From Methylibium sp. (GTDB lineage Bacteria > Pseudomonadota > Gammaproteobacteria > Burkholderiales > Burkholderiaceae_C), in assembly GCF_013817365.1 (NCBI RefSeq), contig NZ_JACDCU010000007.1, positions 1-32,777 on the forward strand: 32,777 nucleotides of DNA. The letters are read 5' to 3'. A program made the translations under genes and the position numbers. Below are positions 1,886 to 24,869 of this stretch, piece by piece. How positions within the stretch are numbered: the first letter of the stretch is position 1; every line of letters starts with the position of its first letter. Under the pieces are notes generated by a model, which saw nothing but the letters and a program-made list of their open reading frames with translations, made no database searches and was not told the DNA's origin.

Positions 1886-1939
1886 TGACATCGCATGGAA
1901 GGCCCTCCGCGGCAATAGCCTGCTCCCGTTTCTCAACGG
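1886..1939 (+). promoter_or_regulatory. Late-gene intergenic motif, copy 1, with leader hairpin
   Basis: The sequence TGACATCGCATGG (1886-1898) lies seven bases after the stop of the zinc-ribbon gene, and its last base is 54 bases before the ATG at 1952. The leader carries a hairpin CCGTT-TCTC-AACGG (1926-1939), followed at once by AAAAGG as ribosome-binding site. The core recurs at four other late-gene gaps at almost the same distance from the start codon. A TTGACA (1885-1890) overlaps it, but no matching -10 box is seen 16-18 bases downstream. Confidence 0.6.
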
Positions 1940-1951
1940 AAAAGGCTCACC

Positions 1952-2254
1952 ATGCGTCAACTCGATCTCGGCACGCTCGCGGCGGTTGCCGTCGGCACTT
2001 CGTTCTCCACCCAGGGCGCGGGCTTCCTGCCGGGTGAACTGGCTGTCGCTCGCATCTTCTCGCCCGGCGGCGCGTTCGCCGGCTCGGCGAAGATTCAGAC
2101 CTCGCCTGATGGCACGACCTGGACCGATGCCGGCGTTGCCGTCACGGGCGGAACGGACAGCTTCACGGTGACGCTGTCTGGCTTTGCTCGCCTGAACTGC
2201 ACCGCCCGCACGGCGGGTTCGGTCAAGGCTGTGCTCGAAAATAGCATCGGCTGA
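1952..2254 (+). CDS. Small virion-associated protein upstream of portal (hypothetical)
   Basis: 100 residues, MRQLDLGTLAAVAVGTSFST at the start, rich in Gly, Ala, Ser and Thr, with alternating beta-prone stretches (KIQTSPDGTTWTDAG). The composition resembles head-decoration or small structural proteins. The segment TSPDGTTWTDAGVAVTGG is typical of beta-sandwich virion proteins. The ATG has AAAAGG 8 bases upstream, just after a leader hairpin. It sits directly before the portal gene, a position often held by head proteins. No specific family is recognised. Confidence 0.65.
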   Translation: MRQLDLGTLAAVAVGTSFSTQGAGFLPGELAVARIFSPGGAFAGSAKIQTSPDGTTWTDAGVAVTGGTDSFTVTLSGFARLNCTARTAGSVKAVLENSIG

Positions 2255-2255
2255 C

Positions 2256-4577
2256 GTGGATGAGGCCCAAAGCGCCCCGGTAGACGAACAGCAGACGGCG
2301 CAAGCCGAGCGGTTCAAGAAGCGCCTGAAGTACTTCGGCGGGCTCCACAAGGAGCACGTCAAGCGCTGGGAGCGCAACCGCAAGCACGTCAACGGGGAAA
2401 GCGGCGAGGACGGCGGACAGGGCCTCGTTCGCGTGAACCTGATCGCCTCGGTCGTCAACACGATCCAGCCGAACATCTACGCCAAGGCGCCCGAGGTCTC
2501 CGTTCAACCGGAGGAGCGCGTCAATCAAGAGTCGTATGAGCCCGTCGTCCAGGACTTCTCCAAGACACTGGAGATGGTGCTCAACCGCTACGCGGTCCGT
2601 GGCGGGATGCTCAAGGCACGAGGCAAGGAGGCCGTTCGCGCTTCCTTGACCTGTACGACGGGGTGGACCAAGGTTATCTACCAAAAGGAAAAGCGCGAAG
2701 ACCCGCTGATCCGCAACCGCATCAACGACGCCCAGGACAACATCCTGCGCGTCGAGCAGTTGCTCAAGCAGACCGAGGACGAGGGCAAGTGCACGGAGTA
2801 CCAGTGCAACATGGCCGAGTTGAAGCAGCAGATCGCTGCGATGCAGGGGCAGGTCGAGGTGCTTGTCTCCGAGGGTCTGGTGATCGACAACGTCCAGCCC
2901 GAGCACATGCTTATCCTCGATGCGTCGATCAAGACAATCGACGAGTACGCCCAGGCATCGGCCATTGCGCACGGCGTCTACATGACGGTCGGGGCCTACA
3001 AGACGCAGTTCGGCAAGGCCCCCCCGAACAAGGCCACCCGCTACAGTGAGCGTGACGATGAGGAAGACCGCTCGAAGGTCGGTATGGACGCCGATGACGA
3101 GCTCGTCCTTGTTTGGGAAATCTGGTCGAAGGACGACCTGACCGTCTACACCCAATGCGCCGGGGCGTCGGAGTTCTGCCGCGCGCCTTACCAGCCCAAG
3201 ACGCTGGGGCAACAGTGGTATCCGTTCTTCCCCTTGCAACTGTGGCGCGTCAACGGCTATCTCTACGCCCGTGCCCTGGTGGATAACCTCATCGAACTGG
3301 TTGATGAGTACAACACCCGCCGGACGGTGGCGGCCGAGCACCGGCGCAAGAACATGCCGGTTCGGCTTATCAACAAGGCCGCCAGCATCACCGACGAGGA
3401 CATATCGCGGATCAACTCGCGCAGCGCGAGCACCGACCTGATCGGCCTGGAAGCCGACCCGGCCAACCCGCTGCAGAACCAACTCGGCAGCCTGCCCGAG
3501 ATTCCGTACAACCGGGATATGTACGACACCTCCGACATCCTGAGGGACGTGGAGATGGTGTCGGGGGCTCAGGACGCCTCACGCGGGGGCGTCAGTGCCG
3601 CCAAGACCGCCACCGAGGCGGAAATCATGGCGATGGGCATGCAGTCGCGCACCGCCGAACAACTCGACTCGATCGAGGACTGGCTGACCGCCATCCTGTC
3701 GTACTGCGCCCAACTGCTGCTGCAGAACCTGACGCAAGAGATGGTCAAGGCCAAGTTCGGTGAGGACGCTGTGTGGCCCGAACTGAGCAAGAAGGAATTG
3801 TTCGAACAGGTCATGGTGCAGATTCGGGCAGGGTCCACGGCCAAGCCCAACAAGATGCGCGAGCGCGACCAGTGGCTGCAGTTCCTGCCGCAGATGCAGG
3901 AGGCGGTCATGCGCATCAGCGAGCTGCAGGCCAATGGCCAGGTCGATCTCGCCGACTCCCTCATCAAACTGCTCGACGAGACCCTGCGCCGCTTCGACGA
4001 ACGCATGAGCATCGAGGAATTCGTCCCCGGCTCGAAGGACGAAGAGGGCCGGCCGAACATGAACCAGATGTTGCAGGTTGCGCAGCAGAAGATCCAGGAG
4101 TTGACCCAGGAAGCCGAAGCTGCCCTCGAACAGCAGCAGGCCGAGGTTGCCAAGCGCGAAGAGGCTGCCACCCAGCGCGAGACGGCGCTCAGCATCAAGG
4201 AAATCAGCTTCAAGGCCGATGAGGACGTGGCCCGGATTCGCAAGCAGTACGAGGACGCCCTGCGTGGTGTGGATGACGAGCGCACACAGCTTCAGTTCGA
4301 GCAGCAGACCTTCGAGATGGCCAAGGCCGAGCAGCAGACGCAACAAGCGCTGCAGGCTGAGGCGTTGAAGATCGAGCAGGCTGGGCAGGCGTTGCAGGCT
4401 GAGGCTGGGGCTGAGGCAGAGCCGGACACCGGCGCACTGCAGGAAGTTCTCGCCGCGCAGCAGCAGCTTGCCGACCAACTCGTGCAGATCATCAAAACCG
4501 TCAACGCGCCCCGAGTGCTCGTGCGCGACGACATGGGCCGACCCATCAAGAGCATCGTTGAACAGGACTCACCATGA
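2256..4577 (+). CDS. Portal protein
   Basis: 773 residues starting at GTG one base after the preceding stop. It is the dodecameric ring at the head vertex through which DNA enters and leaves. It is assigned from its size (P22-type portals are about 725), its place after terL, and typical segments: an N-terminal YFGGLHKEHVKRWERNRKHVNGE, early VNTIQPNIYAK and a mid-protein DNLIELVDEYNTRR. From about residue 600 to 745 the protein is very rich in Gln, Glu and Ala with a heptad-like pattern. This is a long coiled coil that would form the portal barrel reaching into the head. The stop overlaps the next start (ATGA). Confidence 0.88.
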   Translation: MDEAQSAPVDEQQTAQAERFKKRLKYFGGLHKEHVKRWERNRKHVNGESGEDGGQGLVRVNLIASVVNTIQPNIYAKAPEVSVQPEERVNQESYEPVVQDFSKTLEMVLNRYAVRGGMLKARGKEAVRASLTCTTGWTKVIYQKEKREDPLIRNRINDAQDNILRVEQLLKQTEDEGKCTEYQCNMAELKQQIAAMQGQVEVLVSEGLVIDNVQPEHMLILDASIKTIDEYAQASAIAHGVYMTVGAYKTQFGKAPPNKATRYSERDDEEDRSKVGMDADDELVLVWEIWSKDDLTVYTQCAGASEFCRAPYQPKTLGQQWYPFFPLQLWRVNGYLYARALVDNLIELVDEYNTRRTVAAEHRRKNMPVRLINKAASITDEDISRINSRSASTDLIGLEADPANPLQNQLGSLPEIPYNRDMYDTSDILRDVEMVSGAQDASRGGVSAAKTATEAEIMAMGMQSRTAEQLDSIEDWLTAILSYCAQLLLQNLTQEMVKAKFGEDAVWPELSKKELFEQVMVQIRAGSTAKPNKMRERDQWLQFLPQMQEAVMRISELQANGQVDLADSLIKLLDETLRRFDERMSIEEFVPGSKDEEGRPNMNQMLQVAQQKIQELTQEAEAALEQQQAEVAKREEAATQRETALSIKEISFKADEDVARIRKQYEDALRGVDDERTQLQFEQQTFEMAKAEQQTQQALQAEALKIEQAGQALQAEAGAEAEPDTGALQEVLAAQQQLADQLVQIIKTVNAPRVLVRDDMGRPIKSIVEQDSP

Positions 4578-5011
4578 GCAAGACAAACACCCTCGAAACG
4601 CAGTGGCTGCTGCTGCTGCTGAACAACACGCCCATTACCCTGATCGGTGACGCGGCGGGCATCCTCGGTTCAGCCGCGGCGGGCTCCTTGTACCTCTCGG
4701 GCCACACGGCCGACCCTGGAGAGGCGGGCGACCAGACCACGAGCGAGATCGCGTACACGAGCTACGCCCGCGTGGCGGTGGCGCGCACGACCAGCGGCTT
4801 CACGGTGAGCGGCAATGCCGGCTCGCTCGTGGCGAACACGAACTTCCCGGCCGGCACAGGCGGCACCGGCACGATGACGCATGTGGGCATCGGCACCTCG
4901 GCCAGTGGCGCCGGCAAGCTGCTCCTGAAAGGCGCCATCACCCCGAACATCGTCTGCGGAAACGGCATCACGCCGACCGTGCAGGCCGGCACCGTGGTGA
5001 CGGAGGATTGA
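4574..5011 (+). CDS. Structural protein (hypothetical, beta-rich)
   Basis: 145 residues with an ATG overlapping the portal stop. It contains segments seen in a widespread phage structural family: SLYLSGHTADPGEAGDQTTSEIAYTSYARVAVAR (only partly diagnostic) followed by GFTVSGNAGSL and a Gly/Thr-rich stretch with MTHVGIGTSASGAGKLL. Such proteins are usually found in head or tail fibre modules and are predicted all-beta. I do not know a demonstrated function. Its coupling to the portal suggests head or neck decoration. Confidence 0.65.
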   Translation: MSKTNTLETQWLLLLLNNTPITLIGDAAGILGSAAAGSLYLSGHTADPGEAGDQTTSEIAYTSYARVAVARTTSGFTVSGNAGSLVANTNFPAGTGGTGTMTHVGIGTSASGAGKLLLKGAITPNIVCGNGITPTVQAGTVVTED

Positions 5012-5385
5012 TGAAGCACCTGCTCGCCTTCGCGCTCGCCTGTCTCGCCGTCGCCGCGCAGGCCGCGCCCACGCTCAGCGCCGACCCGTACCCGTCCACC
5101 GGCCCGCAGCCGACATCGGTGACGCTGACCGTCAACGGCTCACCGGGCCCGGCCTGCACGCTGGTCGCTGGCACGGGGGGCTCTCTCACACCGCGCTGTG
5201 ATTTGGCGGCCCTTGCGGTGCCTGGCACCTACACGCTAGTGATGACGGCGGTTACGACGGGCGGCTGCACACAACCGACCTCACCGGCCACATGCACGCA
5301 AGCGGGGTCGGCGTCGTCTGTCCCTTTCTCGTTGTCGCTGCAAGGGGCAAGTGCTACGCGCCCGGTGGTTCGCGTCGCGCCGTAA
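5011..5385 (+). CDS. Secreted small protein with signal peptide
   Basis: 124 residues from the ATG at 5011. The track's TTG at 5008 is less likely, since GGAGG at 5002-5006 fits either start. The N-terminus MKHLLAFALACLAVAAQA is a classic Sec signal peptide: a basic residue, a hydrophobic core, and AQA before a predicted cut. The mature part looks like a small Ig-like beta-sandwich (DPYPSTGPQPTSVTLTVNG) with four Cys that could form disulfides in the periplasm. A signal peptide inside the structural operon is odd, because virion proteins are normally cytoplasmic. It overlaps the neighbours by 1 to about 90 bases, depending on the next gene's start. Confidence 0.6.
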   Translation: MKHLLAFALACLAVAAQAAPTLSADPYPSTGPQPTSVTLTVNGSPGPACTLVAGTGGSLTPRCDLAALAVPGTYTLVMTAVTTGGCTQPTSPATCTQAGSASSVPFSLSLQGASATRPVVRVAP

Positions 5386-5432
5386 CTTGCCCGGACACCT
5401 TCACCAGCAGCGCGATCCCGACGACAGCACCC

Positions 5433-6092
5433 ATGGCCGCCTTCCGCAGCATTGCCTCGATCAACTACGCGCAACGCGCGAACGCGAGCGTCAGTGTGCC
5501 GTCCGGCGTCGTCGATGGGGACGTGCTGCTGCTGGCCTTCCTGACGGGGCGCGCGAGCAGCGCACTGGACGCAACAGCGCCGGCAGGCTGGACACTCGTG
5601 AGCGGGTTTCCGACAACGTCCAACGATGCAGGGAATTTCTTCGTCAGGACGTGGCTGTACTCGCGGGTCGCTAACTCCGAGCCTGCCAGCTACAGCTTCT
5701 CTCACGCGACTGTTGCCACCGAGGGCGTGATGGTTGCTGTGTCGGGCGGGTCGGCCACGGCGCCCGTCGCTACGATCAACACAGGCACCGGCTCCACCGT
5801 CACCGCCACGGGACTGACGGCTGGTTCTGGTGCGTATATCGGATTCATTGGCCGCGGATGGGACTTCTACGGCTCATCCGCTGCGCCAACCCAAACACCG
5901 CCCACGCTCACCGAACGGCGCGACCCCACGGACGGCTTGATCTATGTCGCCGACGGAACGCTGACCGATGCTGGGGCAACGGGTAACAAAACCCACACCA
6001 ACGGCAACACGGGCGCCTTTCCCTGGGCCGGGATTCTGGTGGCGGTCGAGCCCGATGTCCGCAAACAACTTTTGATGATGGGAGTGAACTGA
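5433..6092 (+). CDS. Structural protein (hypothetical)
   Basis: 219 residues from ATG 5433. The ORF is open from 5292, but the extra N-terminal residues are unlike the rest and overlap the previous gene, so 5433 is preferred although no clear ribosome-binding site precedes it. The sequence reads as a beta-rich virion protein: SGVVDGDVLLLAFLTG, APAGWTLVSGFPTT and SYSFSHATVATEGVMVAVSGG are the recurring pattern of minor tail or fibre proteins with a jelly-roll-like domain. It ends one base before the next gene. The exact role is unknown. Confidence 0.6.
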   Translation: MAAFRSIASINYAQRANASVSVPSGVVDGDVLLLAFLTGRASSALDATAPAGWTLVSGFPTTSNDAGNFFVRTWLYSRVANSEPASYSFSHATVATEGVMVAVSGGSATAPVATINTGTGSTVTATGLTAGSGAYIGFIGRGWDFYGSSAAPTQTPPTLTERRDPTDGLIYVADGTLTDAGATGNKTHTNGNTGAFPWAGILVAVEPDVRKQLLMMGVN

Positions 6093-6093
6093 C

Positions 6094-6390
6094 ATGGCGA
6101 CTTACGTTGAACTGATGGAATGCCAGGCCGACGCTACCCTGCGCCAGCGCGTCGCGGCGGCGTGCGTGGTTGCGGCCGAGGCGATCCGGGTCGAACCCGG
6201 CGCGACGAACGATCACGCCAACCGCCTGCTGTGGGCGAAGAAAGTGTTCGCCTCGCCGACGATTGCTGCCGACAGCATGGTGTGGGCGGTTCTCGCGCAG
6301 AACAAGGCGGCCACCAAGGCGCAGATTCTCTCGGCCACCGACGCGTCGCTGCAGACCGCCGTTGACGCCGCGGTCGCGGTGTTCGTCTAA
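6094..6390 (+). CDS. Small hypothetical phage protein, helical
   Basis: 98 residues with a strong GGGAGTGA ahead of the ATG. The sequence is mostly helical (VAAACVVAAEAIRVEP, DAAVAVFV), and the segment NDHANRLLWAKKVFASP resembles small proteins found next to capsid genes in many temperate phages. There is no signal peptide or membrane segment. Its place between beta-rich structural genes suggests a head or tail assembly role, but this rests on context only. Confidence 0.6.
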   Translation: MATYVELMECQADATLRQRVAAACVVAAEAIRVEPGATNDHANRLLWAKKVFASPTIAADSMVWAVLAQNKAATKAQILSATDASLQTAVDAAVAVFV

Positions 6391-6398
6391 GGGTAGTC

Positions 6399-6863: not shown

Positions 6864-6881
6864 TCCGGTGAAGGCGCAGCC

Positions 6882-7784: not shown

Positions 7785-7795
7785 ATTGCTACGTG

Positions 7796-7842
7796 TGACA
7801 TCGCATGGAAACCATGCCCGCTCTCTACCGTGCCGATACGGT
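7796..7842 (+). promoter_or_regulatory. Late-gene intergenic motif, copy 2, with leader hairpins
   Basis: TGACATCGCATGG (7796-7808) lies 12 bases after the repeat-protein stop and ends 52 bases before the scaffold start (7860). The motif itself can fold as GCATGG-AAA-CCATGC (7803-7817). A second inverted repeat, ACCGT-GCCGAT-ACGGT (7827-7842), lies just before the start region. No sigma-70 boxes are evident. Confidence 0.6.
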
Positions 7843-7859
7843 AACCACGAGAGACGGCA

Positions 7860-8837
7860 TTGGACGACGAGGAACTCGAAGTAGCGGAGCCCTCCCTGCA
7901 AGAGCAGGTTGAGGAAGCGATCGGCCTGACTGACGGCGAGTCGGCAGAGCCCGATGTCGTCGAGCCCGAGGTTGCCACTGAGGCAGCCCCCGAGGCCACC
8001 GCGGAAGCCAAGGTCGAGCCCAAGCCCGAGCCCAAGCCTACCGACGAGCTTTACGCACCGCTGCCCGAGCACAACCCGCGCAAGACGCACGAGCGCTTCG
8101 CCAAGCTGGTGGAGGGCCACAAGACGGTCTCCACCGAGCGCGATCAGGTCGTCGGCGAGCGCGACGGGCTGCGCCAGAAGGTGCAGGAGCACGAGCAGGG
8201 CTGGAAGACGTTTCAGGACATGGGGTTCGCCTCTGAGGAGTCGGTAGCAGACCTCGTGCAGTTCAGCCAGTACCGCAACGCCCTGAACTCCGGCAACTTC
8301 GACGCCGCCGCGGCTGTGCTGCAAGAGCAGGCCCGCCAACTCTCCCTGTTGTCGGGGCGTCGCATCGACGTGAACCCGCTGGCCGGCTACCCGGACCTCA
8401 ACGAGCGCCACCAGTCCGGCGGGCTCGACGAGGCCACGGCAATGGAGTTGGCTCGCGCCCGGCACACGCAGGGCCTGCAGCAGCAGTACTCGCAGCGCCA
8501 GGCACAGCAGCAGGAGCACATCGCCACGCAAAGCGGCGCCATTCACTCCGCCGCGCGAGAAGTGGATGCCGTGGTCTCCGATCTGATGAAAGACCCGGAC
8601 TACGCCAAGGTCGAGCCCGAACTGCTCAAGCAGTTGGAGGGCATCAAGACCGGCTATCCCCCGCACATGTGGCCGCGCGAAGTCAAGCGCGCCTACGACA
8701 CCGAAGCACGTTTCCTGCGCCATCAGGCGCAATCCCAGCCCCTGCCGACACCCCTGCGTGGGAACGGCCATTCCGGCGGATTGCCCGCGCCCAAGTCAAT
8801 GGGCGACGCGGTCCTTCAGTCGATGGGGCTGATGTGA
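7860..8837 (+). CDS. Scaffolding protein, probable
   Basis: 325 residues. The start is TTG at 7860 with GAG(AG) upstream, and its fixed distance to motif copy 2 supports it. The N-terminal 60 residues are very acidic and Pro-rich (EVAEPSLQEQ, AEAKVEPKPEPKP), then a coiled coil (KTVSTERDQVVGERDGLRQKV) and Gln-rich helices (QQQYSQRQAQQQEH) follow. The C-terminus is a short basic helix-rich tail. Acidic disordered N-terminus, coiled-coil middle and a position just before the major capsid gene are the hallmarks of phage scaffolds, which guide capsid assembly and are then removed. Family-level similarity is inferred, not searched. Confidence 0.75.
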   Translation: MDDEELEVAEPSLQEQVEEAIGLTDGESAEPDVVEPEVATEAAPEATAEAKVEPKPEPKPTDELYAPLPEHNPRKTHERFAKLVEGHKTVSTERDQVVGERDGLRQKVQEHEQGWKTFQDMGFASEESVADLVQFSQYRNALNSGNFDAAAAVLQEQARQLSLLSGRRIDVNPLAGYPDLNERHQSGGLDEATAMELARARHTQGLQQQYSQRQAQQQEHIATQSGAIHSAAREVDAVVSDLMKDPDYAKVEPELLKQLEGIKTGYPPHMWPREVKRAYDTEARFLRHQAQSQPLPTPLRGNGHSGGLPAPKSMGDAVLQSMGLM

Positions 8838-8948
8838 GGGCTGTATGCGGAGTTCGCCACCGCGGCTGTCATTCGGGGCTCGCCTCCCGGTTTGGGCTGT
8901 AACGCACGCGCTCGCCCGCGCATGTCCCTAACCAAATGAGGTAACCCA
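8838..8948 (+). other. Leader of the major capsid gene
   Basis: 111 bases without a gene. It holds two copies of GGGCTGTA (8839-8846, 8894-8901) and a usable GAGG just before the capsid ATG. Unlike most other late gaps, it lacks the ACATCGCATGG motif. No convincing promoter or terminator is visible. Confidence 0.4.
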
Positions 8949-9995
8949 ATGCCATTGAACGCGCTAGAAATCGAGAAAATCTCGAAGGTCGCCATCGACC
9001 ACTACCGGAAGAATCCGCCGGTCGATCAGATCAACGTCGAACGTCCCCTCCTTGACCTCCTCGTCAAGAAGGCCCGTCCCATCCCGGGCGGCAAGGAATA
9101 CATCGTTGACAACATCTATGTTGCCAACGGCGGCAACGGCCAGTACTGGTCGGGCAATTCCAAGGTCACGTACAACACCCGCAACCCGAACGAGCTGGTC
9201 AAGTACCGCTGGGCCAACTTCCACGATGGTTTCACCATCAACGAAGACGAACTCAAGCGCGCCGGCATCACGGTCAACGACGACAAGGGCAAGTCCACCG
9301 CCACCAGCGGTGAGGCCCTGGCGCTGACCAACATGCTCGAGAGCCAGTTCAAGGCCCTCGACGAAGGCGCCAAGGACTTCGTCCACGCGTCCCTGTGGCT
9401 GGACGGTTCGCAGTCGGCCGACGCCACCCCGGGTGTCGATGGGCTGGTCTCGACCACGCCCGCCACCGGCACGATCGGCGGCCTGAGCGCGGTGACGAAC
9501 ACCTACTGGCGCAACTTCGCGCGCACGGGTCTCGCCACCACGCTGACGGTGTTGCTGGATGCGTTGGAGCAGAACAAGCGCGATGTCATGCGGACCAAGG
9601 GCCGTGTGTCGCACTACTTCTGCGGCGCCGCGTTCTACGACGCGCTGCGCAATGCAGTCGTCGGCGCCAACGTCACGCAAGTGCAGTACAGCGGTGGCTC
9701 GACGCTCGATATCGACATGGCGACGAAGACCCTGCGCTTCGACGGCGTGCCGATGGTCTGGGTGCCGGACTTCGACACCAACTTCGGCCTGTCCGCGCCC
9801 ACGATCCCGTGGACCAAGCGCTGCTACGCGCTCGACCTGCGCCACCTCGACTTGCACCGCGACACGGACGACTGGATGCGCATGCGCTACCCGGGCCGCC
9901 CGATCGACCAGTACGTCTATTACTACGCCATGACGGCGAAGTACGGGATGTCACTGCGCAAGCGCAACGCACAAGGCGTGCTCGCCATCGCGTGA
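8949..9995 (+). CDS. Major capsid protein
   Basis: 348 residues, the expected size for an HK97-fold coat protein of a podovirus. Assignment rests on its place directly after the scaffold, a strong downstream terminator, and typical segments: NGQYWSGNSKVTYNTRNPNE, KYRWANFHDGFTINEDELK, and VDGLVSTTPATGTIGGLSAVTNTYWRNFA, split here into short parts. These are a pattern often seen in coat proteins (W-x-N-F-H-D-G-x-x-I and G-G-x-x-x-x-x-N-x-Y-W-R-N). The ATG follows ATGAGGTAACCC. It should self-assemble into the icosahedral shell around portal and scaffold. Confidence 0.88.
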   Translation: MPLNALEIEKISKVAIDHYRKNPPVDQINVERPLLDLLVKKARPIPGGKEYIVDNIYVANGGNGQYWSGNSKVTYNTRNPNELVKYRWANFHDGFTINEDELKRAGITVNDDKGKSTATSGEALALTNMLESQFKALDEGAKDFVHASLWLDGSQSADATPGVDGLVSTTPATGTIGGLSAVTNTYWRNFARTGLATTLTVLLDALEQNKRDVMRTKGRVSHYFCGAAFYDALRNAVVGANVTQVQYSGGSTLDIDMATKTLRFDGVPMVWVPDFDTNFGLSAPTIPWTKRCYALDLRHLDLHRDTDDWMRMRYPGRPIDQYVYYYAMTAKYGMSLRKRNAQGVLAIA

Positions 9996-10005
9996 TGTTG
10001 CCATT

Positions 10006-10034: not shown

Positions 10035-10044
10035 CGGAGACCTA

Positions 10045-16449: not shown

Positions 16450-17130
16450 TCAGGGCCGCTTGCGAGCGGCCCAGCCCACAAGACCGAGGCCGGCGAGCAT
16501 CAGCGCGTAGGTGGAGGGCTCGGGGATGGCAGCCATGACATCGCCATCACGAACGGCCCAAGCGCCGACGTAGGCTATCTGGAAGTCCTGGTCGCCCAGT
16601 TCGCCCCAGTTCGCGTACACCGACGAGTAGAACTCGCCGTCCTCGAACTTGTCGCTGGACTGATAGTCGCCGTCTATGACGCCGGAGAGAACGTAAGTCG
16701 GTTGAATGTTGAAGAACGGCCCGGCTGTCGTTTGATCGACTGCGGGACTGCCGAGTTGAATAAACAAGTTGTGCATCTCGGTCGAACCAGGCGTCGAAAA
16801 CATCTCGATGGAGCCATCCTTGACCGATAACAGCGCCCGCGGGGTTCGCCAATCGGTGTAGCCGCCAACGGTCAGGCTGTCGGCCCACTGGACCTGAGTC
16901 CAGAACGACATGTACCCTGGCGGCAGCGGGTTCGAGTCGCCATACGGGTACGAGTCCCCATACCATTCGGTGGCCACGTACCCGCTCGTGGCCGCGTAGT
17001 TGCCGTCCTGCAGCCAAGTGATGTTCTGGCTGCTGTCGTAGATCATGCCGCCGCCGCGGTCGAACAGAGCGGCCTGCGCGGTGGCAGTCATACAAAGCGC
17101 GGCAGCCGCGCAGATCGTGCGAATGTTCAT
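16450..17130 (-). CDS. PEP-CTERM exosortase-substrate protein, DUF1566-like
   Basis: 226 residues on the opposite strand to all neighbours. It has a signal peptide (MNIRTICAAAALCMTATAQA), then a DUF1566-like body (RGGGMIYDSSQNITWLQDG, WADSLTVGGYTDWRTP). The C-terminus ends in a PEP-CTERM sorting tag: PEPST at about 203-207, a hydrophobic stretch (YALMLAGLGLVGWAA) and a basic RKRP end. Established knowledge: such proteins are processed by exosortase in exopolysaccharide-making Gram-negatives. In a phage this is cargo likely expressed from the prophage, with its own promoter. It converges on the spike gene (1-base gap). The ATG is preceded by AGGGAC. Confidence 0.88.
   Translation of the reverse strand: MNIRTICAAAALCMTATAQAALFDRGGGMIYDSSQNITWLQDGNYAATSGYVATEWYGDSYPYGDSNPLPPGYMSFWTQVQWADSLTVGGYTDWRTPRALLSVKDGSIEMFSTPGSTEMHNLFIQLGSPAVDQTTAGPFFNIQPTYVLSGVIDGDYQSSDKFEDGEFYSSVYANWGELGDQDFQIAYVGAWAVRDGDVMAAIPEPSTYALMLAGLGLVGWAARKRP
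16453..16472. other. Inverted repeat at the convergent ends of two genes
   Basis: A perfect 8-bp stem, GGGCCGCT (16453-16460) with AGCGGCCC (16465-16472), and a TGCG loop. It lies just after the spike stop and inside the last codons of the PEP-CTERM gene. There is no T-run on either strand, so it is only a possible bidirectional stop or RNA-end structure. Confidence 0.45.
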
Positions 17131-17210
17131 GTTTCGTCCCTGTGCCTAGGGCGTTCTAGATTACGACTCGCGCGACGGATTGAGAGTGCGCTGTCGCACC
17201 AAAAGTGCTG

Positions 17211-17224
17211 CGCATCGCATGGAA
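17211..17224 (+). promoter_or_regulatory. Late-gene intergenic motif, copy 3
   Basis: CGCATCGCATGGAA, a one-base variant of ACATCGCATGG with C for A-C at its 5' edge, ends 53 bases (last G at 17222) before the GTG at 17275. It is the only copy in a divergent gap and differs most from the consensus. The following leader holds GGTCACC...GGTGACC. Confidence 0.5.
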
Positions 17225-17233
17225 CGACGGGGG

Positions 17234-17257
17234 GGTCACCACACTACTGCGGTGACC
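17234..17257. repeat. Inverted repeat GGTCACC-N10-GGTGACC
   Basis: A perfect 7-bp inverted repeat (17234-17240 and 17251-17257) with a 10-base spacer sits between motif copy 3 and the HNH start. The spacing, one helical turn between half-site centres plus a few bases, could suit a dimeric repressor. It could equally form a leader hairpin like those seen after the other motif copies. Confidence 0.55.
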
Positions 17258-17274
17258 ACTCCCCTCCTGGCGCC

Positions 17275-17916
17275 GTGAGAGTTCATCGCATGTTTGACGA
17301 GCAGGCGCCCGCTGTCCGGCAGATGCGCGATTTCGGCATGACATGGGCTGCCATCGCGAGCCATTACGGCGTTTCCGAGCCGACACCAAAGAACCTGTTG
17401 GCGCGAGTAGACGGACAGTGTGTCCCGCGACCCTATGGCAAGCGTCCCACGCCGTTGCTGGACTTGTTCAACGCACGTGTCGTGCGGGCAAACGGGTGCT
17501 GGGGATGGGTCGGCGCCAAACATGGCTTCGGCTACGGATGGTGCGGCACTGGGTCAGATAAAGACCTGGCACACCGTGTCGCATATCGCTTGTTCCTTGG
17601 TGAAATCCCGGCCGGCATGTGCGTGATGCACGCATGCGACAACCCGGCATGCACCAACCCGGCCCATTTGAAGCTTGGGACGCAGGCTGAGAACCAAGCC
17701 GACAAGGTTTCAAAGGGCCGGCAGTACAGAGGGGAGCGCCACCATTGCTACGGCAAGCGCTCGTGGAAATCTCACCTTACTGACGAGGGCGAACTCAATG
17801 CCCGTCGCATGCTGGCCGAAGGCCACAAGCGAGCCGAGATCGCCAGCGCACTCGGCGTCAGCTACAGCGTCATTCGACGTGTAGACAAACGCGCGCGGCA
17901 GGGGGTACACGGGTGA
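17275..17916 (+). CDS. HNH homing endonuclease (free-standing)
   Basis: 213 residues if GTG 17275 is used; ATG 17290 (208 residues) is an alternative. Neither has a clear ribosome-binding site; the 53-base distance to motif copy 3 favours the GTG. The catalytic core AHRVAYRLFLGEIPAG (about 99-114) followed by VMHACDNPACTNPAHLKLGT (about 117-136) is the HNH_3 type with N-x-H/CxNP. It is flanked by an N-terminal HTH (WAAIASHYGVSEPTPKNLLA) and a C-terminal HTH (AEIASALGVSYSVIRRV). It makes DNA cuts and spreads itself. Codon use is visibly less GC-biased than the neighbours. Its stop overlaps a GTG start. Confidence 0.9.
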   Translation: MRVHRMFDEQAPAVRQMRDFGMTWAAIASHYGVSEPTPKNLLARVDGQCVPRPYGKRPTPLLDLFNARVVRANGCWGWVGAKHGFGYGWCGTGSDKDLAHRVAYRLFLGEIPAGMCVMHACDNPACTNPAHLKLGTQAENQADKVSKGRQYRGERHHCYGKRSWKSHLTDEGELNARRMLAEGHKRAEIASALGVSYSVIRRVDKRARQGVHG

Positions 17917-17997
17917 GCACGATCACGTTTTAACCAATGGGGCTTCGGCCTCGACCTGCGCAAGGGGGCATCCACCTCAGATGCCAACCGGCTGCGG
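17913..17997 (+). pseudogene. Frameshifted N-terminus of the stabilization-like gene
   Basis: GTG at 17913 overlaps the HNH stop and encodes MSTITF, then TAA at 17931-17933. Removing one T from the TTTT run (17928-17931) gives MSTITFNQWGFGLDLRKG... continuing in the frame of the ORF at 17998. This matches the start that such proteins usually have. The break is therefore one extra base in a homopolymer: either real mutation, a sequencing error, or a UUU-UAA +1 slip. AGGGGG upstream (17900-17905) serves as ribosome-binding site. Confidence 0.7.
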
Positions 17998-19302
17998 GTG
18001 CTGAAGAACGCCTACGTCACGGACGGCAAGACCATCCGCAAACGCCCCGGCTGTGTGAAGGTGGCAACGCTCTCAAAGGGGACGTTCGGCCTGTTCTCGG
18101 GGCTGGGCAGGCTGAACACGTTTCAAGCGACCGAATCGACCGCCTTCAGCCACGACTCGACGCTGCTGGTCAACAACAGGCTGAGCACGGAAATCGATGC
18201 GTTTTCCGGGGTGTCGTACTGCGACACCTTCAACGGCTTCCTGTACGTGGTCGCACAGGTCGGGACGACCTACCGCCACCATTACCTTGATGGCGACTTC
18301 AACACCATCATCACCGACTCGAACTGTCCCCGGACCGCCATCGCGGCCAAAGCGGCCTCGAAGATGTGGGCGGGCAAGGATGACGTGGTGCGGTTTTGCG
18401 CGACCAACAACCCGCGCGACTGGACACTCGCCAACGATGCAGGGTTTTTGCCGGTGGGCCTGCAGCAGTCGGGCAGCCGAAACGTCACGGCCATCGGCAA
18501 CTACCAAAACAGGCTGGTCCCTTTCTTCCCCGACTCGGCCCAAATCTGGGAGGTCGATCCCGACCCCATCAACCACAAGTTTTTGCAGTCGGTGGACATC
18601 GGCACGACCCGCCCTTACACCCACCAAAACATGGCAGGCGATGTGTTCTACCTGTCGCCTGCTGGTGTGCGAACGATCACGAAGCAGGCCGACACCGAGA
18701 ACCTGATCGACGCCGACGTGGGCTCACCCATCGACAACGAGTTGTTGAATGGCACCTTCCTCGACCTCAATACCTGCCGGGCGCAATATTTCCGCGGGGC
18801 AGGGCAGTACTGGCTGTACGCGGGAAACACCGCGGCGGTGTTCACCTTCTCGCGCACCGCGAAGATTTCGGCTTGGTCGATCTATGAGTTCCCGTTCAGC
18901 CTGGATTACATCGATGAGCTCGACACCTTCCTGTACATCCGCTCGGGTGATGAGGTGTACCGGATGGACAGAGCGACCTGGACCGATGCCGGCGTGCCGT
19001 TCACCGTCGAGATCGAAACCTCGTTCGTGGACTTCAAGGGGCCCGGTGTCCTGAAGCAGATTCTCGCCATGGATGCGGTGGTGTCGGGGACGGCGGAGTT
19101 CTCGCACCGATACGACCCCCGCAGCCCGAGCATCGAGACCTTCCCCGCGGTCACGATCACAGGCGACACCCGGCCGGGCACACAGTACCCGGTGGAGCTG
19201 ATGACGACGAGCCTCTCGACCGTCGTCAGGAACAGCGATGACCAGGAGTTCGAGTTGCACTCCCTCTCCTACATGTTCGAGAACCTGAGTTCGTCCGTAT
19301 GA
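17998..19302 (+). CDS. Stabilization/tail-hub-like protein (P22 gp10-like)
   Basis: 434 residues from the track's GTG, which has no ribosome-binding site and is probably internal; the gene most likely begins at 17913 (see frameshift feature). The frame upstream reads NQWGFGLDLRKGASTSDANRLRVLKNAYVT, the usual N-terminus of P22 gp10-type packaged-DNA stabilization proteins. The rest is beta-rich, with KTIRKRPGCVKV, RDWTLANDAGFLPVG and FFPDSAQIWEVDPDP. Position between the adaptor and internal proteins fits a tail-hub or plug part that keeps DNA in. The stop TGA (19300-19302) is also the first bases of motif copy 4. Confidence 0.7.
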   Translation: MLKNAYVTDGKTIRKRPGCVKVATLSKGTFGLFSGLGRLNTFQATESTAFSHDSTLLVNNRLSTEIDAFSGVSYCDTFNGFLYVVAQVGTTYRHHYLDGDFNTIITDSNCPRTAIAAKAASKMWAGKDDVVRFCATNNPRDWTLANDAGFLPVGLQQSGSRNVTAIGNYQNRLVPFFPDSAQIWEVDPDPINHKFLQSVDIGTTRPYTHQNMAGDVFYLSPAGVRTITKQADTENLIDADVGSPIDNELLNGTFLDLNTCRAQYFRGAGQYWLYAGNTAAVFTFSRTAKISAWSIYEFPFSLDYIDELDTFLYIRSGDEVYRMDRATWTDAGVPFTVEIETSFVDFKGPGVLKQILAMDAVVSGTAEFSHRYDPRSPSIETFPAVTITGDTRPGTQYPVELMTTSLSTVVRNSDDQEFELHSLSYMFENLSSSV

Positions 19303-19341
19303 CATCGCATGGGCGAAGCCGGCCCGGCGTATGTTCGCCGG
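19300..19341 (+). promoter_or_regulatory. Late-gene intergenic motif, copy 4, with leader hairpin
   Basis: TGACATCGCATGG (19300-19312) begins at the stop codon of the gp10-like gene and ends 51 bases before the next start (19363). The leader has the inverted repeat CCGGCG-TATGTT-CGCCGG (19324-19341), followed by AAAAGGAG as ribosome-binding site. Confidence 0.6.
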
Positions 19342-19362
19342 CATCATGAAAAGGAGCTGACC

Positions 19363-20121
19363 GTGTGCAGTGGCGGCGGAGACGGCGGCGCGGCAAAGCG
19401 CCAAGCAGGCATGAAGCGCGAGCAAGACCTTGCGATTCAGGACATCAATCACGTCTTCGGCAAGGGTGACGGCCAAGCGCTCTACAAGAACGTCAACGTC
19501 CCCGGCGAAATGCAGATGCGTGGCTGGGAGCAGGTGCAAGGCCCCGACTCAACTAAGAAGGTGATCAGCGGTTACGACACCACGGGAAGAGACGCCAACG
19601 CGGCCGCCCGTGAACAACTGTACGGCACGATCACCAACGACTCGGAGGCCCGCCTACTCGACCAGCTTGGCGATGACCGCACAAAGGCGGAGCGTGGGGT
19701 TAGGTTCCAACTCGCGCGCCAGGGTTTGATGGGCGGCAGCGCCGACATCGACCAGGGCTCCGAAGTGCTCGAGCAGTTCCAGAAGGGCAGCCTTGAGGCG
19801 CGGAACGCCTCCACCGCTGTGAGCAACACCGCGCGCACATCCGACGAGAAGACCCGCGTGGGCCTCATCAACAACATTCGCAACGGCATGGCGCAAAGCG
19901 ATGCCCTGTCTGCCGCCTATGCAGGCATGACCAACAACGCCAACGAGGCCCGCGACACCGCAATGGCCACCAACATCGGCGGTTTCTTCGACGACATCTC
20001 GATCCTCGGTGCGCAGCGTCAGTACCAGGACGGCCTGCAAAGAGGGGTGCAGCGCGGCCGCGGGTTCGGCGCCTCCACGTCGGCATCGCAGGGCGGATTC
20101 AACGGAGACAAAAGGCCGTGA
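19363..20121 (+). CDS. Internal virion/ejection protein (MCxGG type)
   Basis: 252 residues from GTG 19363 (AAAAGGAG upstream, spacing 8). The ATG at 19309 in the track lies inside the motif leader and is rejected. The start MCSGGGDGGAAKRQ is like the N-terminus of the later 221-residue protein (MCTGTEAAW). Both resemble small podovirus internal or ejection proteins. The middle is Gln/Asn/Ala-rich and helical (LDQLGDDRTKAERGVRFQLARQGLMGG). The end is Gly/Arg-rich. It would be packaged with the capsid and leave with DNA. Overlaps the next gene by four bases. Confidence 0.65.
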   Translation: MCSGGGDGGAAKRQAGMKREQDLAIQDINHVFGKGDGQALYKNVNVPGEMQMRGWEQVQGPDSTKKVISGYDTTGRDANAAAREQLYGTITNDSEARLLDQLGDDRTKAERGVRFQLARQGLMGGSADIDQGSEVLEQFQKGSLEARNASTAVSNTARTSDEKTRVGLINNIRNGMAQSDALSAAYAGMTNNANEARDTAMATNIGGFFDDISILGAQRQYQDGLQRGVQRGRGFGASTSASQGGFNGDKRP

Positions 20122-20555: not shown

Positions 20556-20557
20556 CG

Positions 20558-21223
20558 ATGTGTACTGGAACAGAAGCGGCGTGGGTGCCTGCCTTGCTCG
20601 CTGCGGCAGGAGCAGGAACGACCTACATGGCCGCCGAGAAGCAGGAATCGGCACGCAAGCGCGCGATCAACCAAGGACTCGAAGCCGAGGGGCAGATTCA
20701 GAAGAAGGCCAACCTGCGCACCAACGATTTCGTGCAGGACAACTTCGACCCCACGAACCGCGCCGCCAACTATGAAACGCAGGCAGCGAACCAGGAGAAG
20801 TCCTTCGGCGAACTCCTGGCCAAGCAATCGTCGCTCGGTCAAGGCGAGATCAACGACTCCACCGCCGGCGCGTTGTCTGACGAGTACGTGCGCGGCAAGG
20901 CGAAGGCCACGGCCGACACCCAGCAGCGCACGCGCGACCTGTCTCGGCTTCTGTCCCGTCAGGGGGCAGTCGGCGGGCTGGCGAACCAGGACGCGATGGC
21001 CGGCGGTGACTACTCCAGCGACATGATGGGTTTCGGTGTGGATCAGCGACTGAACAACAACCTGACGAACGTGAAGTTCGGCTCTGCCGGCTCCAAGGGC
21101 GGCGAGCTTTCCTTGCTGGGCGGGCTGCTGTCCGGGTCGGCGGGGGTGGTCGGCGGCGCCAAGCGGAAGTACGACTCCACGAGGACGCCCGGCGCCACCA
21201 ACGGCACGGACTGGGGCGAGTGA
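20558..21223 (+). CDS. Internal virion protein (MCTG type)
   Basis: 221 residues from ATG 20558; the track's TTG at 20552 is less likely. It begins MCTGTEAAWVPALLAAAGAG, a hydrophobic N-terminal helix that could insert in membranes, and continues with AEKQESARKRAINQGLEAEGQIQKK (a charged helix). The centre is Ser/Thr/Gln-rich and helical. Small proteins starting MCxG lie next to gp13-like genes in podoviruses and act in DNA ejection. The stop overlaps the next ATG by one base (TGATG). Confidence 0.65.
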   Translation: MCTGTEAAWVPALLAAAGAGTTYMAAEKQESARKRAINQGLEAEGQIQKKANLRTNDFVQDNFDPTNRAANYETQAANQEKSFGELLAKQSSLGQGEINDSTAGALSDEYVRGKAKATADTQQRTRDLSRLLSRQGAVGGLANQDAMAGGDYSSDMMGFGVDQRLNNNLTNVKFGSAGSKGGELSLLGGLLSGSAGVVGGAKRKYDSTRTPGATNGTDWGE

Positions 21224-22644
21224 TGGCAGGCTACGGACAACTCGGCCGCAGCTTCGGGACCGCCGTGGGCGGCTTCTTCGGCGGCGACTCACAGGCCCAG
21301 CAAGCCGGTGAGATGGCCGGGCTGCAGCGCATCGCGCTGGAAGACCAGATCGGCCAGCGCCGCGTGCTGGCGCAGGCTACGCAGCAGAAGATGCAGGCCG
21401 ATGCGGCAGAAGCGGCAATGAAGACGCCGCAGGCGGGCATGCAGCGCGTCAGGCAAAGCCTCGGCATCCCGGAAGAGGCCGCGCCGCAACTCGACCAGTA
21501 CCTGCGCGGCGGGCGCATCGATCGATACGACATGGGCGGCCGGCAAGGCCCCGTGATGCCCGCGCCCGAGTGGGCGGAGAAACCTGCGCTCGACAAGTTC
21601 GGACAGTTCTTCTCGGCGGATCAGGCGGTGCAGTCGGGCTCGGCGAAGTCGGTCAAGGACTACTTCGACGGCATGGGCGCACAGGCCGAAGCCGGCCTCA
21701 CGGGGTTGATTGCCAGCGGCAATATCGACCCCACGGTGGGCGCCACGCGCGCCTATGCCATAAAGGGCAGCGCGCCGTACAACTTCAACGAGTACGGTGT
21801 CGGCAACAACCTGACAGGCGAAGTCGATGCCAGCGGTGGTCCTGCGGTGGCGTTCGGCAACTACCGCACGGCCACGACAGGCGCACAGCAAGCCAACGCT
21901 CGACAAAGCGACGCCTCTGCAGTGGCATCGCGTGCATCGGCCGACAACTCTCGTGCCAGCGCGGCCAAGACGCGATTCGAGATGACGGACGGCGCGAACG
22001 GTCGGGGCCAGAAGGCTCCTGTCGGCTATCGCTGGTCCGGAGACGCGCTAGAGCCGATCAAAGGCGGCCCGGCCGATCCTGCGACGAAGGGCGCAAAGCT
22101 TGCCAAGCCGCCGACCGAGGGCCAGGCCAAAGCGCTGATGTTCGGCTCGCGCATGACGGTTGCGGACGAGGTGCTGAAAGAACTTGAGGCCACTGGCCAA
22201 CGGTTGCCCAACATGACGAAGCAGGCTGCTGAGTCGGTCCCTTTGATCGGGACCGCCTTGGGCATGGGCGCCAACATGTTAGGCACGGACGGCGAGCAGC
22301 AAGTCGAGCAGGCACAACGCGACTTCATCAACGCCATCCTGCGCCGTGAGTCGGGCGCGGTTATTGCGGACAGCGAGTTCAACAACGCTCGCAAACAGTA
22401 TTTCGCCCAGCCCGGAGACAGCCCGACCGTCTTGCGCCAAAAGGAGATCAACCGCCGCACCGCAATCGAAGGCCAGAAGGCCGAGTTCGGCGAACAGTCG
22501 ATGCCGCAGTTTCTCGACATCGTGCGCAGCGCCCGCTCGGAACGTCAGAAGCCGCTGCCGGATACGCCGCAGCGCAAGAGCGGCACGGTAAGCCGTGAGG
22601 CGGCGTCGCCGAGCGTGGACGCGCTGCTCGAAAAGTACAAGTAA
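21223..22644 (+). CDS. DNA ejection/internal virion protein
   Basis: 473 residues from ATG 21223. The N-terminus, GTAVGGFFGGDSQAQQAGE, is Gly-rich, then helical (AEAAMKTPQAGMQRVRQSLG). A conserved-looking block near residues 365-410 (RDFINAILRRESGAVIADSE, then QYFAQPGDSPTVLRQKEINR) is the usual core of podovirus ejection proteins. The rest of the chain is Ala/Ser/Gln-rich and unstructured. It is likely packaged and injected to make the DNA passage through the cell envelope. It overlaps the next gene by one base. Confidence 0.7.
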   Translation: MAGYGQLGRSFGTAVGGFFGGDSQAQQAGEMAGLQRIALEDQIGQRRVLAQATQQKMQADAAEAAMKTPQAGMQRVRQSLGIPEEAAPQLDQYLRGGRIDRYDMGGRQGPVMPAPEWAEKPALDKFGQFFSADQAVQSGSAKSVKDYFDGMGAQAEAGLTGLIASGNIDPTVGATRAYAIKGSAPYNFNEYGVGNNLTGEVDASGGPAVAFGNYRTATTGAQQANARQSDASAVASRASADNSRASAAKTRFEMTDGANGRGQKAPVGYRWSGDALEPIKGGPADPATKGAKLAKPPTEGQAKALMFGSRMTVADEVLKELEATGQRLPNMTKQAAESVPLIGTALGMGANMLGTDGEQQVEQAQRDFINAILRRESGAVIADSEFNNARKQYFAQPGDSPTVLRQKEINRRTAIEGQKAEFGEQSMPQFLDIVRSARSERQKPLPDTPQRKSGTVSREAASPSVDALLEKYK

Positions 22645-24809
22645 TGGCGACGCTCGAAGAGATCGAGGGCGCGCTCGTCAAGGCCGACGCAGCAGGCAAC
22701 GCCGACGATGCGCGCACGCTTGCTGCCGAGGTGCGGCGCCTGCGCGCGGCGCCCCCCGAGCAGCCTGCCGCGGTGCAGGCCGGCAGCGCCTTGCGGGGCA
22801 TTCCCCGCCAACTCGGCCTTGCCGCTCGCTACGCAATCGAAGGCCCTGCGCAGGCCGCGCAGATCGTCACCGAGCCGATCCGGCAGTTCTTGGTGAACCC
22901 GGTGGCGCGCCTCGCCGGCATGTCAGAGGCGCAGCCCTTGGCAACTGGCGCATCCTCCCTGGCCGATTCGCTGGGGCTGCCGAGCCCGAGTGGCGCCAAC
23001 GAGCGAGTAGTCGGGGACGCAACCCGCTTGGGCTTCGGCGGAGCCGGGCTGGCGCGTGGCGCGGGGGTGGTGGCCGATGCGACAACCGGCGTCACCAGCA
23101 AAGTCGCGCAGATGTTTGCCGCCAACCAGGGCCAGCAAGTGGCCTCTGCCGCCACCGCTGGGGCTGCAGGAGGCTCCGTGCGCGAGGCTGGTGGCGGCGC
23201 TGGCTCGCAGGCTGCCGCAGCACTCATGGGCGGGCTTGCGGCGCCGGCAGGCATGGGCGCTGTGCAAGGGGCGTCGAACAAGGTTTCGCAGTTCTTCCGG
23301 CCGGCGCCGGCGATGCAGCAGGTTGACCAACAGATCGAACTGACGCTCTCCAGGCAGGGCGTTGACTGGTCGAGCGTCCCCGAGGGTGTCCGGCAAGGCA
23401 TTCGCTCCGAAGTGCAGCAGGCTCTGCGCCCGGACGGCGAACTCGACGGGGCCGCGTTGTCCCGCCTGATCGACTTCCGTCGCGTGCAAGGGGCGACCCC
23501 GACCCGCGGCATGGTGACCCTCGACCCGGGGCAGATCACGCGCGAACGCAATCTCGCCAAGACGGGGGCGAACAGCGTCGATATCGGCATGCAGCAACTG
23601 TCGGGCATCGAGAACGCGAACAACCGCGCATTGATCCAGGGGCTGAACAACGCAGGCGCCTCCGGGGCCGACGATGCGGTCACGACCGGCGGCCGGGTGA
23701 TCGGCGCATTGCAGCGTGGCCTGGATGCCGAGCGGGGCAACGTCAATCAACTCTATTCGGCCGCCCGCGATAGCAGCGGCCGCAGCTTCCCGCTCGACGG
23801 CGGCGCTTTCACGCAGCAGGCCAACAAGGCGCTCGACGACGCATTGCTCGGCGGCGCTCTGCCGCCCGGTGTGGCGCAGCACATGAACCGGATTGCGTCG
23901 GGCGAGGTGCCGTTCACGGTCGATTACGCGGAGCAGCTTAAAACGCAGATCGGCAACCTGCAAAGAGCGAGCAGCGACGGCTCTGTGCGCATGGCGCTGG
24001 GCAAGGTGCGCGAGGCGCTGGACAACACCCAAGTGATGGTCCTTGGCGAGCAGGCGCCTGCGGCCGGTGCACGAGCGGTGAACCCCGGCAACCTGCCCGC
24101 GCTGGCCGGGCCGCAACTCGGCGAGGACTCCTTGGCAGCGTTCAATCAGGCCCGCGCCGCGAATCGCACCATGATGCAGCGGATCGAATCAACGCCGGCT
24201 CTTCAGGCGGTCTACGATGGCGTCGAGCCCGACCGATTCGTGCAGCAGTTCATCGTCAGCCCAACCGCCAGCATCCGAGACATCCAGGCGCTGCGCCGCG
24301 AACTAGTGAACGACCCACAGGCCATGCAGTCGGTGAGGGGCAATCTTGCCGACCATCTCAAGCGCAAAGCCCTCGGCGGTGCCGACGACGAAGTGGGCAA
24401 CTTCAGCGCATCCAACTTCAAGAAGGCGTTCGACGCCATCGGCGAGCAGAAGCTGCGCGCGTTTTTTGACCCTGAGGAAATCGACCAACTCCGCGCCATT
24501 GGTCGCGTAGCGAGCTACATGACCGTGCAGCCCAAGGGCAGCGCGGTGAACAACTCCAACAGTGGGGCACTGGTGCTCGGGCGAGGGCTGGACTTGCTCG
24601 ACACCATCGCGGGCCGCCTGCCGATCGGGCAGGACACGGTGCGAGGGTTCGTTCGCGGCATCCAGCAGGGCAATGCGACGAACGTGCAGCCTGCTCTCAT
24701 GCAGCCCAACTTGCGGCAGAGAACGCCGCGGTTGCCTGCTGCGGTCGCTGCCGGTGGGCTATTTGCCCTTCCGGGAGTCCCACCAGGCCAGGATGATCGC
24801 CGCCCCTAA
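22644..24809 (+). CDS. Large internal virion/ejection protein
   Basis: 721 residues. The N-terminal motif LVKADAAGNADDARTLAAEVRR is a helix found in many phage injection proteins. A Gly/Ala-rich, partly hydrophobic stretch around 100-200 (GFGGAGLARGAGVVADATTG, TAGAAGGSVREAGGG) could cross a membrane. The remaining C-terminal half is helical and Gln/Asp-rich, with an end that is hydrophobic (PAAVAAGGLFALPGVPP). No peptidoglycan hydrolase motif is visible. It starts by TAATG overlap with the previous gene. It is the last gene before motif copy 5. Confidence 0.65.
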   Translation: MATLEEIEGALVKADAAGNADDARTLAAEVRRLRAAPPEQPAAVQAGSALRGIPRQLGLAARYAIEGPAQAAQIVTEPIRQFLVNPVARLAGMSEAQPLATGASSLADSLGLPSPSGANERVVGDATRLGFGGAGLARGAGVVADATTGVTSKVAQMFAANQGQQVASAATAGAAGGSVREAGGGAGSQAAAALMGGLAAPAGMGAVQGASNKVSQFFRPAPAMQQVDQQIELTLSRQGVDWSSVPEGVRQGIRSEVQQALRPDGELDGAALSRLIDFRRVQGATPTRGMVTLDPGQITRERNLAKTGANSVDIGMQQLSGIENANNRALIQGLNNAGASGADDAVTTGGRVIGALQRGLDAERGNVNQLYSAARDSSGRSFPLDGGAFTQQANKALDDALLGGALPPGVAQHMNRIASGEVPFTVDYAEQLKTQIGNLQRASSDGSVRMALGKVREALDNTQVMVLGEQAPAAGARAVNPGNLPALAGPQLGEDSLAAFNQARAANRTMMQRIESTPALQAVYDGVEPDRFVQQFIVSPTASIRDIQALRRELVNDPQAMQSVRGNLADHLKRKALGGADDEVGNFSASNFKKAFDAIGEQKLRAFFDPEEIDQLRAIGRVASYMTVQPKGSAVNNSNSGALVLGRGLDLLDTIAGRLPIGQDTVRGFVRGIQQGNATNVQPALMQPNLRQRTPRLPAAVAAGGLFALPGVPPGQDDRRP

Positions 24810-24822
24810 CCAGCCCAGGAAA

Positions 24823-24840
24823 ATGGGGTCCATGCCCCAT
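24823..24840 (+). other. Hairpin upstream of the tail spike gene
   Basis: ATGGGG-TCCATG-CCCCAT (24823-24840) is a perfect 6-bp stem with a six-base loop, followed by AGGGTTTCGTT. It lies after the stop of the 721-residue protein, before motif copy 5. It could be a weak terminator, although its T content is low. Confidence 0.4.
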
Positions 24841-24856
24841 AGGGTTTCGTTCACGT

Positions 24857-24869
24857 CACATCGCATGGA
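24857..24869 (+). promoter_or_regulatory. Late-gene intergenic motif, copy 5
   Basis: CACATCGCATGGA ends (last G at 24868) 51 bases before the tail spike ATG (24919). The leader contains only a weak inverted repeat (TGCG...CGCA, 24871-24895), the least structured of the five. AAAGG serves as ribosome-binding site. Confidence 0.55.

Follow-up and report, generated by a model that had tools for sequence, protein, structure and literature searches.

How late genes are controlled is unknown for most temperate phages that are known only from their sequence. The middle promoters of phage T4, which depend on MotA and AsiA, are transcribed by the host polymerase and have a short, asymmetric box of the phage in place of the -35 element, together with a sigma70 -10 element of the host (PMC2988021, PMC6755090); the MotA box, wwwTGCTTtA, lies 12 +/- 1 bp from the -10 (PMC2988021). 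In temperate phages of Gram-positive bacteria, the small regulators RinA and Ltr, whose genes immediately precede terS or the packaging genes, activate the late genes (PMC13123087). Phage Mu C and P2 Ogr are associated with several activator-dependent sigma70-type late promoters per phage (PMC4461284). The SAS/ESAS motif of cluster K mycobacteriophages is repeated near gene starts, mostly in one orientation and often with an inverted repeat (PMC3203893). Finally, the leaders of T4 gene e and I-TevI contain a hairpin with an embedded late promoter (PMC3014915, PMC2988022). Since the inverted repeat spans the promoter in these leaders, it is only in read-through RNA that the ribosome-binding site can become buried.

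Here we analyze a stretch of 32,777 nucleotides (the window), which is contig C30 in a 4.15-Mb bin of 609 contigs. The window is of phage or prophage origin and encodes a terminase large subunit, head and capsid proteins, an internal virion protein, a tail spike, an endolysin and spanins, together with an HNH endonuclease and a tyrosine integrase. Next to the integrase gene (30749-31768, minus strand) is a segment (30608-30662) that resembles the 3' end of a tRNA, with a terminal CCA, and is a likely attachment site; no second copy of the segment was found within the window.

The word ATCGCATGG is the most over-represented one of the window. Its five copies are all on the plus strand, with none on the minus strand, and all lie in gaps between late genes, exactly where the original prediction had placed them. 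Of all 10-mers in the window, CATCGCATGG ranks first, with 5 occurrences compared to 0.066 expected under a third-order Markov model, and none on the minus strand. The full box reads A-N-ATCGCATGG-A-[A/T]. Counting the 11-mer with two mismatches allowed yielded no excess over chance (13 found, 12.0 expected), and this type of count was dropped because it is too loose to inform. Among the literature matches listed for the core sequence, all were unrelated. Two other readings of the motif were tried and rejected: the five frames that begin with an ATG inside the motif were read by eye and did not contain a consistent small open reading frame, and the motif itself is ruled out as a -10 element by its position.

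According to the original prediction, no sigma-70 boxes match in these leaders. This turned out to be wrong: exactly 17 bp past the last G of the box lies TAnnnT or one of its variants, a -10 hexamer of the host type. In an ungapped stack of the discovery set (13 copies from 4 phages), the only strongly conserved downstream positions were T+18, A+19 and T+23, numbered from the last G of the box. In a held-out test set of 22 new copies from relatives, TAnnnT was present at exactly the predicted place in 21. Over the 35 sites, TAnnnT occurred at a spacer of 17 in 27 cases, and at any other spacer in two cases at most; in 2000 shuffles, the count, maximised over spacers, never exceeded 6. Departures from the pattern consisted of a missing A+19 in three sites, a missing T+18 in six, and a missing T+23 in one. 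A good -35 hexamer was found nowhere, the best match to TTGACA reaching only 2-3 of 6 positions at every site. As the -10 hexamer is fixed 17 bp past the motif, the motif occupies the place of the -35 element, and the box spans -40 to about -28.

The distances from the last G to the next start codon (54, 52, 53, 51 and 51 nt) were correctly predicted and had been taken to tie the signal to translation starts. In relatives, the distance varies between 47 and 67 nt. The near-constant spacing to the start codon is therefore a local feature, the invariant spacing is the one between box and -10, and the data do not support a tie to translation starts as what the motif mainly does. Across phages, leader length is conserved only approximately. 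It is very likely that the motif belongs to a set of promoters with a -35-replacing box. It would form the upstream half of late promoters used by the host RNA polymerase with its main sigma factor, and transcription would start about 30 bp past the last G of the box, giving a leader of roughly 20-35 nt.

The five predicted promoters of the window are all on the plus strand. Promoter 1 consists of box 1 at the -35 position (ACATCGCATGGAA, 1888-1900, core 1890-1898) and the -10 hexamer TAGCCT (1916-1921), 17 bp past the core, and is followed by a gene for a small protein (1952-2254) and then the portal gene. Promoter 2, with box 2 (ACATCGCATGGAA, 7798-7810, core 7800-7808) and the -10 hexamer TACCGT (7826-7831), precedes the gene in the scaffold position (7860-8837), behind which lies the major capsid gene (8949-9995). 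Box 3 (GCATCGCATGGAA, 17212-17224), which carries the one expected edge change, an A to G at its first base, lies just past a minus-strand gene and before the HNH endonuclease gene (17275-17916, plus strand); its -10, CACACT (17240-17245), is weak, with the A and the final T kept. Promoter 4 comprises box 4 (ACATCGCATGGGC, 19302-19314, core 19304-19312) and TATGTT (19330-19335), upstream of a virion-region gene (19363-20121). Box 5 (ACATCGCATGGAT, 24858-24870) is located before the tail fibre or tail spike gene (24919-27198), and its -10, TTTACT (24886-24891), is again weak, with the first and final T kept. The -10 hexamers of the window are thus weak as a group, with the full TAnnnT in three of five and the final T in all five. 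We also note that the HNH gene and the PEP-CTERM protein gene (16450-17130, minus strand) break up the late genes; with promoter 3, the late strand resumes behind the PEP-CTERM gene, and the HNH gene has its own late promoter copy.

The boxed boundaries are conserved in about a dozen uncultured phages, where boxes are found after terL, between portal and scaffold genes, before the internal virion gene, and before the tail fibre gene. Orthologous boundaries carry the box in G150, G152, L131, L133, L135-L137 and L153-L157; the boundary of promoter 1 is boxed in G150, L010, G152, L135, L136, L137, L133 and L153-L155. G150 (IMGVR_UViG_3300045996_000619) has 70-78% protein identity to the window in portal, terminase and capsid. 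Its own top 9-mer is, independently, also ATCGCATGG, with copies at the boundaries that match window sites 1, 2 and 5. In G152 (IMGVR_UViG_2788499817_000001), the box occurs five times in exact form and always on the late strand, and four of these copies lie at boundaries that match window sites 1, 2, 4 and 5; at site 4, L133 has a site in the same region. Two box copies were present in L010, a 4.3-kb relative. A capsid-profile search yielded L131/L132, L133, L135, L136 and L137, whose third box copies precede the tail fibre gene, like window site 5. Exact box copies were absent from the anti-late strand of the box-phage records.

Searches outside this group were less productive. Among cultured phages, a DNA-level search and portal and capsid protein searches identified distant relatives only. 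The portal-profile scan of bacterial genomes gave no relative, and the capsid-profile scan gave 40% relatives only, none of them boxed. A de novo word search in the distant relatives G144, G087 and L022 did not reveal a counterpart of the box.

Three further observations were made in these genomes. In the gene that matches G150 18078-19484, the window has, relative to G150, an additional base within a run of T near the start (17900-18000), so that there is no in-frame start codon before the GTG at 17998; this is either a sequencing error or a real frameshift. The arrangement A-N-CGCATGGG, 16 nt, TATATT/TATGTT recurs inside an acetyltransferase-like gene of relatives (L131 6216, L135 13812, L136 14244, L137 13746, G150 19710). 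It is either a coincidence within coding sequence or a promoter that lies in this gene and serves the one that follows. The terL reading frame of L153 (2730-4934) is split by about 0.8 kb, possibly due to an intron or an inserted endonuclease.

The box is unlike a sigma70 -35 element, and sigma should therefore need help there. A comparison of G150 and G152 revealed that outside the virion and packaging genes, these phages have only a lipoprotein-like protein and a protein of 88-99 residues in common. The latter is encoded directly upstream of terS; in G152, it is followed by Terminase_2 (PF03592) and then terL. An AlphaFold prediction suggested a winged-helix fold (mean pLDDT 77), which Foldseek matched to known winged-helix regulators only generically (best E 1.3e-3). 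Matches in Pfam and PHROGs were weak, with none to the RinA, ArpU or Ltr families, and a Pfam and PDB sequence search gave no match to MotA. In the window, the gene in the terS position is represented by its 3' part (1-226, plus strand), directly before terL. As the contig begins inside terS, and the gene order in G150 and G152 is winged-helix gene, terS, terL, the predicted regulator gene of the window would sit just off the contig, which is why its own copy is not seen. The rest of the bin did not contain a convincing copy of the gene, and none of the cultured phages in the collection searched had it.

In a profile search, the winged-helix protein was found only in box phages, and the box was present at all 10 protein-bearing loci (9 distinct contigs). 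Conversely, every box phage with a contig fully covering the place upstream of terS has the protein. Among 41 eligible terminase relatives, none had the protein, and one had a box match, which is the chance level. L044 (G153) and L046 have terminases 73-74% identical to that of the window, yet lack the protein, whereas phages with terminases only about 41% identical carry both protein and box, so that the distribution of the pair does not mirror that of the terminase. It does mirror the capsid lineage, and this confounds the comparison. A search with the winged-helix protein alone yielded L153, L154 and L155-L158, each with an exact box and TAATCT after terL. L164, which has the most divergent winged-helix protein, carries ATAACATGG-N17-TATTGT after terL. 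In L133, all three boxes are changed to AACGCATGG; here, the recognition helix reads HFHT instead of P[AVI][KR][TA], and the wing DAHNKVW instead of DGHNxVH. Thus, in both phages with changed boxes, recognition-helix and wing residues are altered, and these two cases suggest co-variation of box and protein. Taken together, we consider the winged-helix protein a reasonably probable activator of the promoter set. As a separate observation, G153 (IMGVR_UViG_3300046003_001770), which has neither box nor winged-helix protein, repeats TTTTGTCACCTTGA near gene starts (31033, 38081, 38541), with TATAAA about 16 nt further on in two cases. This may be a late promoter of another type, located at the same terL boundary.

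The promoters could be as described, with the box read by another factor, namely a host activator, a host alternative sigma factor or a different phage protein, while the winged-helix gene is employed elsewhere, for example in packaging. A function in packaging would agree with the position next to terS, and the generic fold match is compatible with other roles. Moreover, the gene and the box track one phage lineage, so that their co-occurrence may reflect common descent. Nevertheless, we regard this explanation as rather unlikely. The composite pattern of box and -10 is almost absent from the host bin, with only two occurrences outside the window in 4.15 Mb. The -10 is of the main sigma type, and a sigma region 2 domain was not found in five box-phage records in a search with working controls. 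No other DNA-binding protein was found to be common to G150 and G152, and the boxes change in just those two phages that have changed recognition residues.

The original prediction had also considered a leader RNA element with a hairpin, and the leaders are indeed structured. Behind the box, 33 leaders had a mean folding z of -1.56 relative to shuffles, with a third of them below -2.5, compared to a mean z of -0.16 and no value below -2.5 for 44 other starts of the same phages (P 0.0008). The inverted repeats that had been noticed in the window leaders exist, but only two of these leaders fold better than shuffles, those at 7809 (z -5.0) and 17223 (z -2.0). The first contains a strong inverted repeat across the -10 (7821-7853, plus strand), the 3' arm of which (GAGAG) covers the likely Shine-Dalgarno sequence of the 7860 gene; in the second, the repeat GGTCACC..GGTGACC (17234-17257, plus strand) spans the -10 that precedes the HNH gene. 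The other three fold no better than shuffles, and the hairpin was therefore rejected as a universal part of the promoter. A repeat that spans the -10 and has its 3' arm on the Shine-Dalgarno sequence was found at window promoter 2, G150 12479, G152 21907, and in L155 and L164. Burial of the Shine-Dalgarno sequence exceeded that in shuffles only modestly (0.38 vs 0.43 unpaired, about 2 sd), so that a strong claim of burial by the sequence upstream of the start was not upheld and a translational layer can only be proposed.

These structures, and the many 3' arms that touch a Shine-Dalgarno sequence, are what one would expect if the motif were an RNA leader element acting on translation or RNA processing of the late genes. 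This is improbable as an explanation of the motif, as the conserved columns form a -35/-10 pattern rather than a paired RNA, the position, sequence and even presence of the hairpin vary, the -10 lies inside the leader, and the distance from the motif to the start codon is not fixed. No window sequence matched an Rfam family at or above its gathering score, and the one sub-threshold match elsewhere was a chance match.

Within the promoter reading, hairpins may be a second layer of control in a subset of leaders, and we give slightly less than even credence to the idea that they add translational control at some sites. In about one site out of three, the -10 and the predicted start lie within an inverted repeat, the 3' arm of which often coincides with the ribosome-binding site. 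RNA from the predicted start would be without the 5' arm and read-through RNA would have it, so that the repeat may keep read-through RNA untranslated as long as the local promoter is silent, as with T4 gene e and I-TevI.

A different RNA structure was seen in the leader of the major capsid gene (8838-8948). Here, small hairpins whose loops contain UCGCC stand in a row that is conserved in the window and in the orthologous leaders of G150, G152, L131, L133, L135, L136 and L137. It consists of GGCTG-[GCGG loop CCGC] and then GGGCTGT-[GGT loop ACC], with a third hairpin in the window and G150. The first stem co-varies (GCGG/CCGC, GTGG/CCAC, GCAA/TTGC, GCAG/CTGC). The row has no Rfam match and looks like a regulatory or protein-binding RNA that is separate from the promoter box.

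A promoter of a phage single-subunit (T7-type) RNA polymerase would also recur as an asymmetric element in late-strand orientation, a short distance upstream of genes. We consider it very improbable here, since there are two blocks 17 bp apart with a host-type -10, and the genomes are of the temperate type, with integrase, RecT and repressor genes. A search for RNA_pol (PF00940) in five related phage records gave no match, although it was run without a positive control. Use of a phage polymerase, which the original prediction had allowed for, does not find support as the main function. That the motif recurs by chance or is a repeat without regulatory role, in line with the lack of enrichment at two mismatches, has a negligible probability in view of the exact core, the strand, the location, the orthologous conservation and the held-out -10 test.

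The first idea of the original prediction, a phage-specific late promoter under an unseen regulator, is by comparison well supported by the -10 at 17 bp, the conserved late-gene boundaries and a candidate regulator gene. Judging from sequence comparison, these are likely sigma70-type late promoters at which a phage factor, probably the winged-helix protein, reads the -35-replacing box. The most likely helper of sigma, encoded directly upstream of terS, would be made together with the terminase genes and would then turn on three to five promoters along the virion genes, late in infection. Tentatively, one may go further and propose that the winged-helix protein founds a new family of sigma-appropriating late activators, that it binds the asymmetric box as a monomer and replaces the contacts of sigma region 4 at the -35, and that it controls a late regulon of scattered promoters, in which the hairpins additionally prevent translation of read-through RNA.

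A single window has thus led to a defined promoter class, a late-regulon map for roughly a dozen phages, and a specific candidate for the regulator. If the protein does replace sigma contacts at the -35, this would be sigma appropriation outside T4. The paired natural variants of box and protein in L133 and L164 offer a way into the recognition code.

With regard to known systems, the promoters resemble T4 MotA promoters in combining an asymmetric, -35-replacing box with a sigma70-type -10 and, as predicted, the host polymerase. However, the box is ANATCGCATGGA at 17 bp from the -10, instead of wwwTGCTTtA at 12 +/- 1 bp, and because sequence and spacing differ, we do not class the promoters as T4 middle promoters. 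In addition, the genes are late rather than middle genes, the candidate protein has no MotA family match, and no AsiA was identified in the part of the G152 early genes that was scanned. The gene position of the candidate regulator directly upstream of terS is shared with RinA/Ltr. No sequence relation to these proteins was found, and they act at a promoter beside their own gene via several repeats, whereas single boxes are spread along the virion genes here. Mu C and P2 Ogr are similar in that several activator-dependent sigma70-type late promoters are present per phage. Their sites are dyad-symmetric and placed differently, in contrast to the asymmetric box on the -35 described here. Like SAS/ESAS of cluster K, the motif is repeated in one orientation near gene starts and often accompanied by an inverted repeat, but its fixed partner is a -10 rather than the start codon, its sequence is unrelated, and the genes concerned are late virion genes. 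The repeat across the promoter is reminiscent of T4 gene e and I-TevI. In the phages studied here, a strong repeat is present at a subset of sites only and would at most suggest translational control. Window promoter 3 even precedes an endonuclease (HNH) gene.
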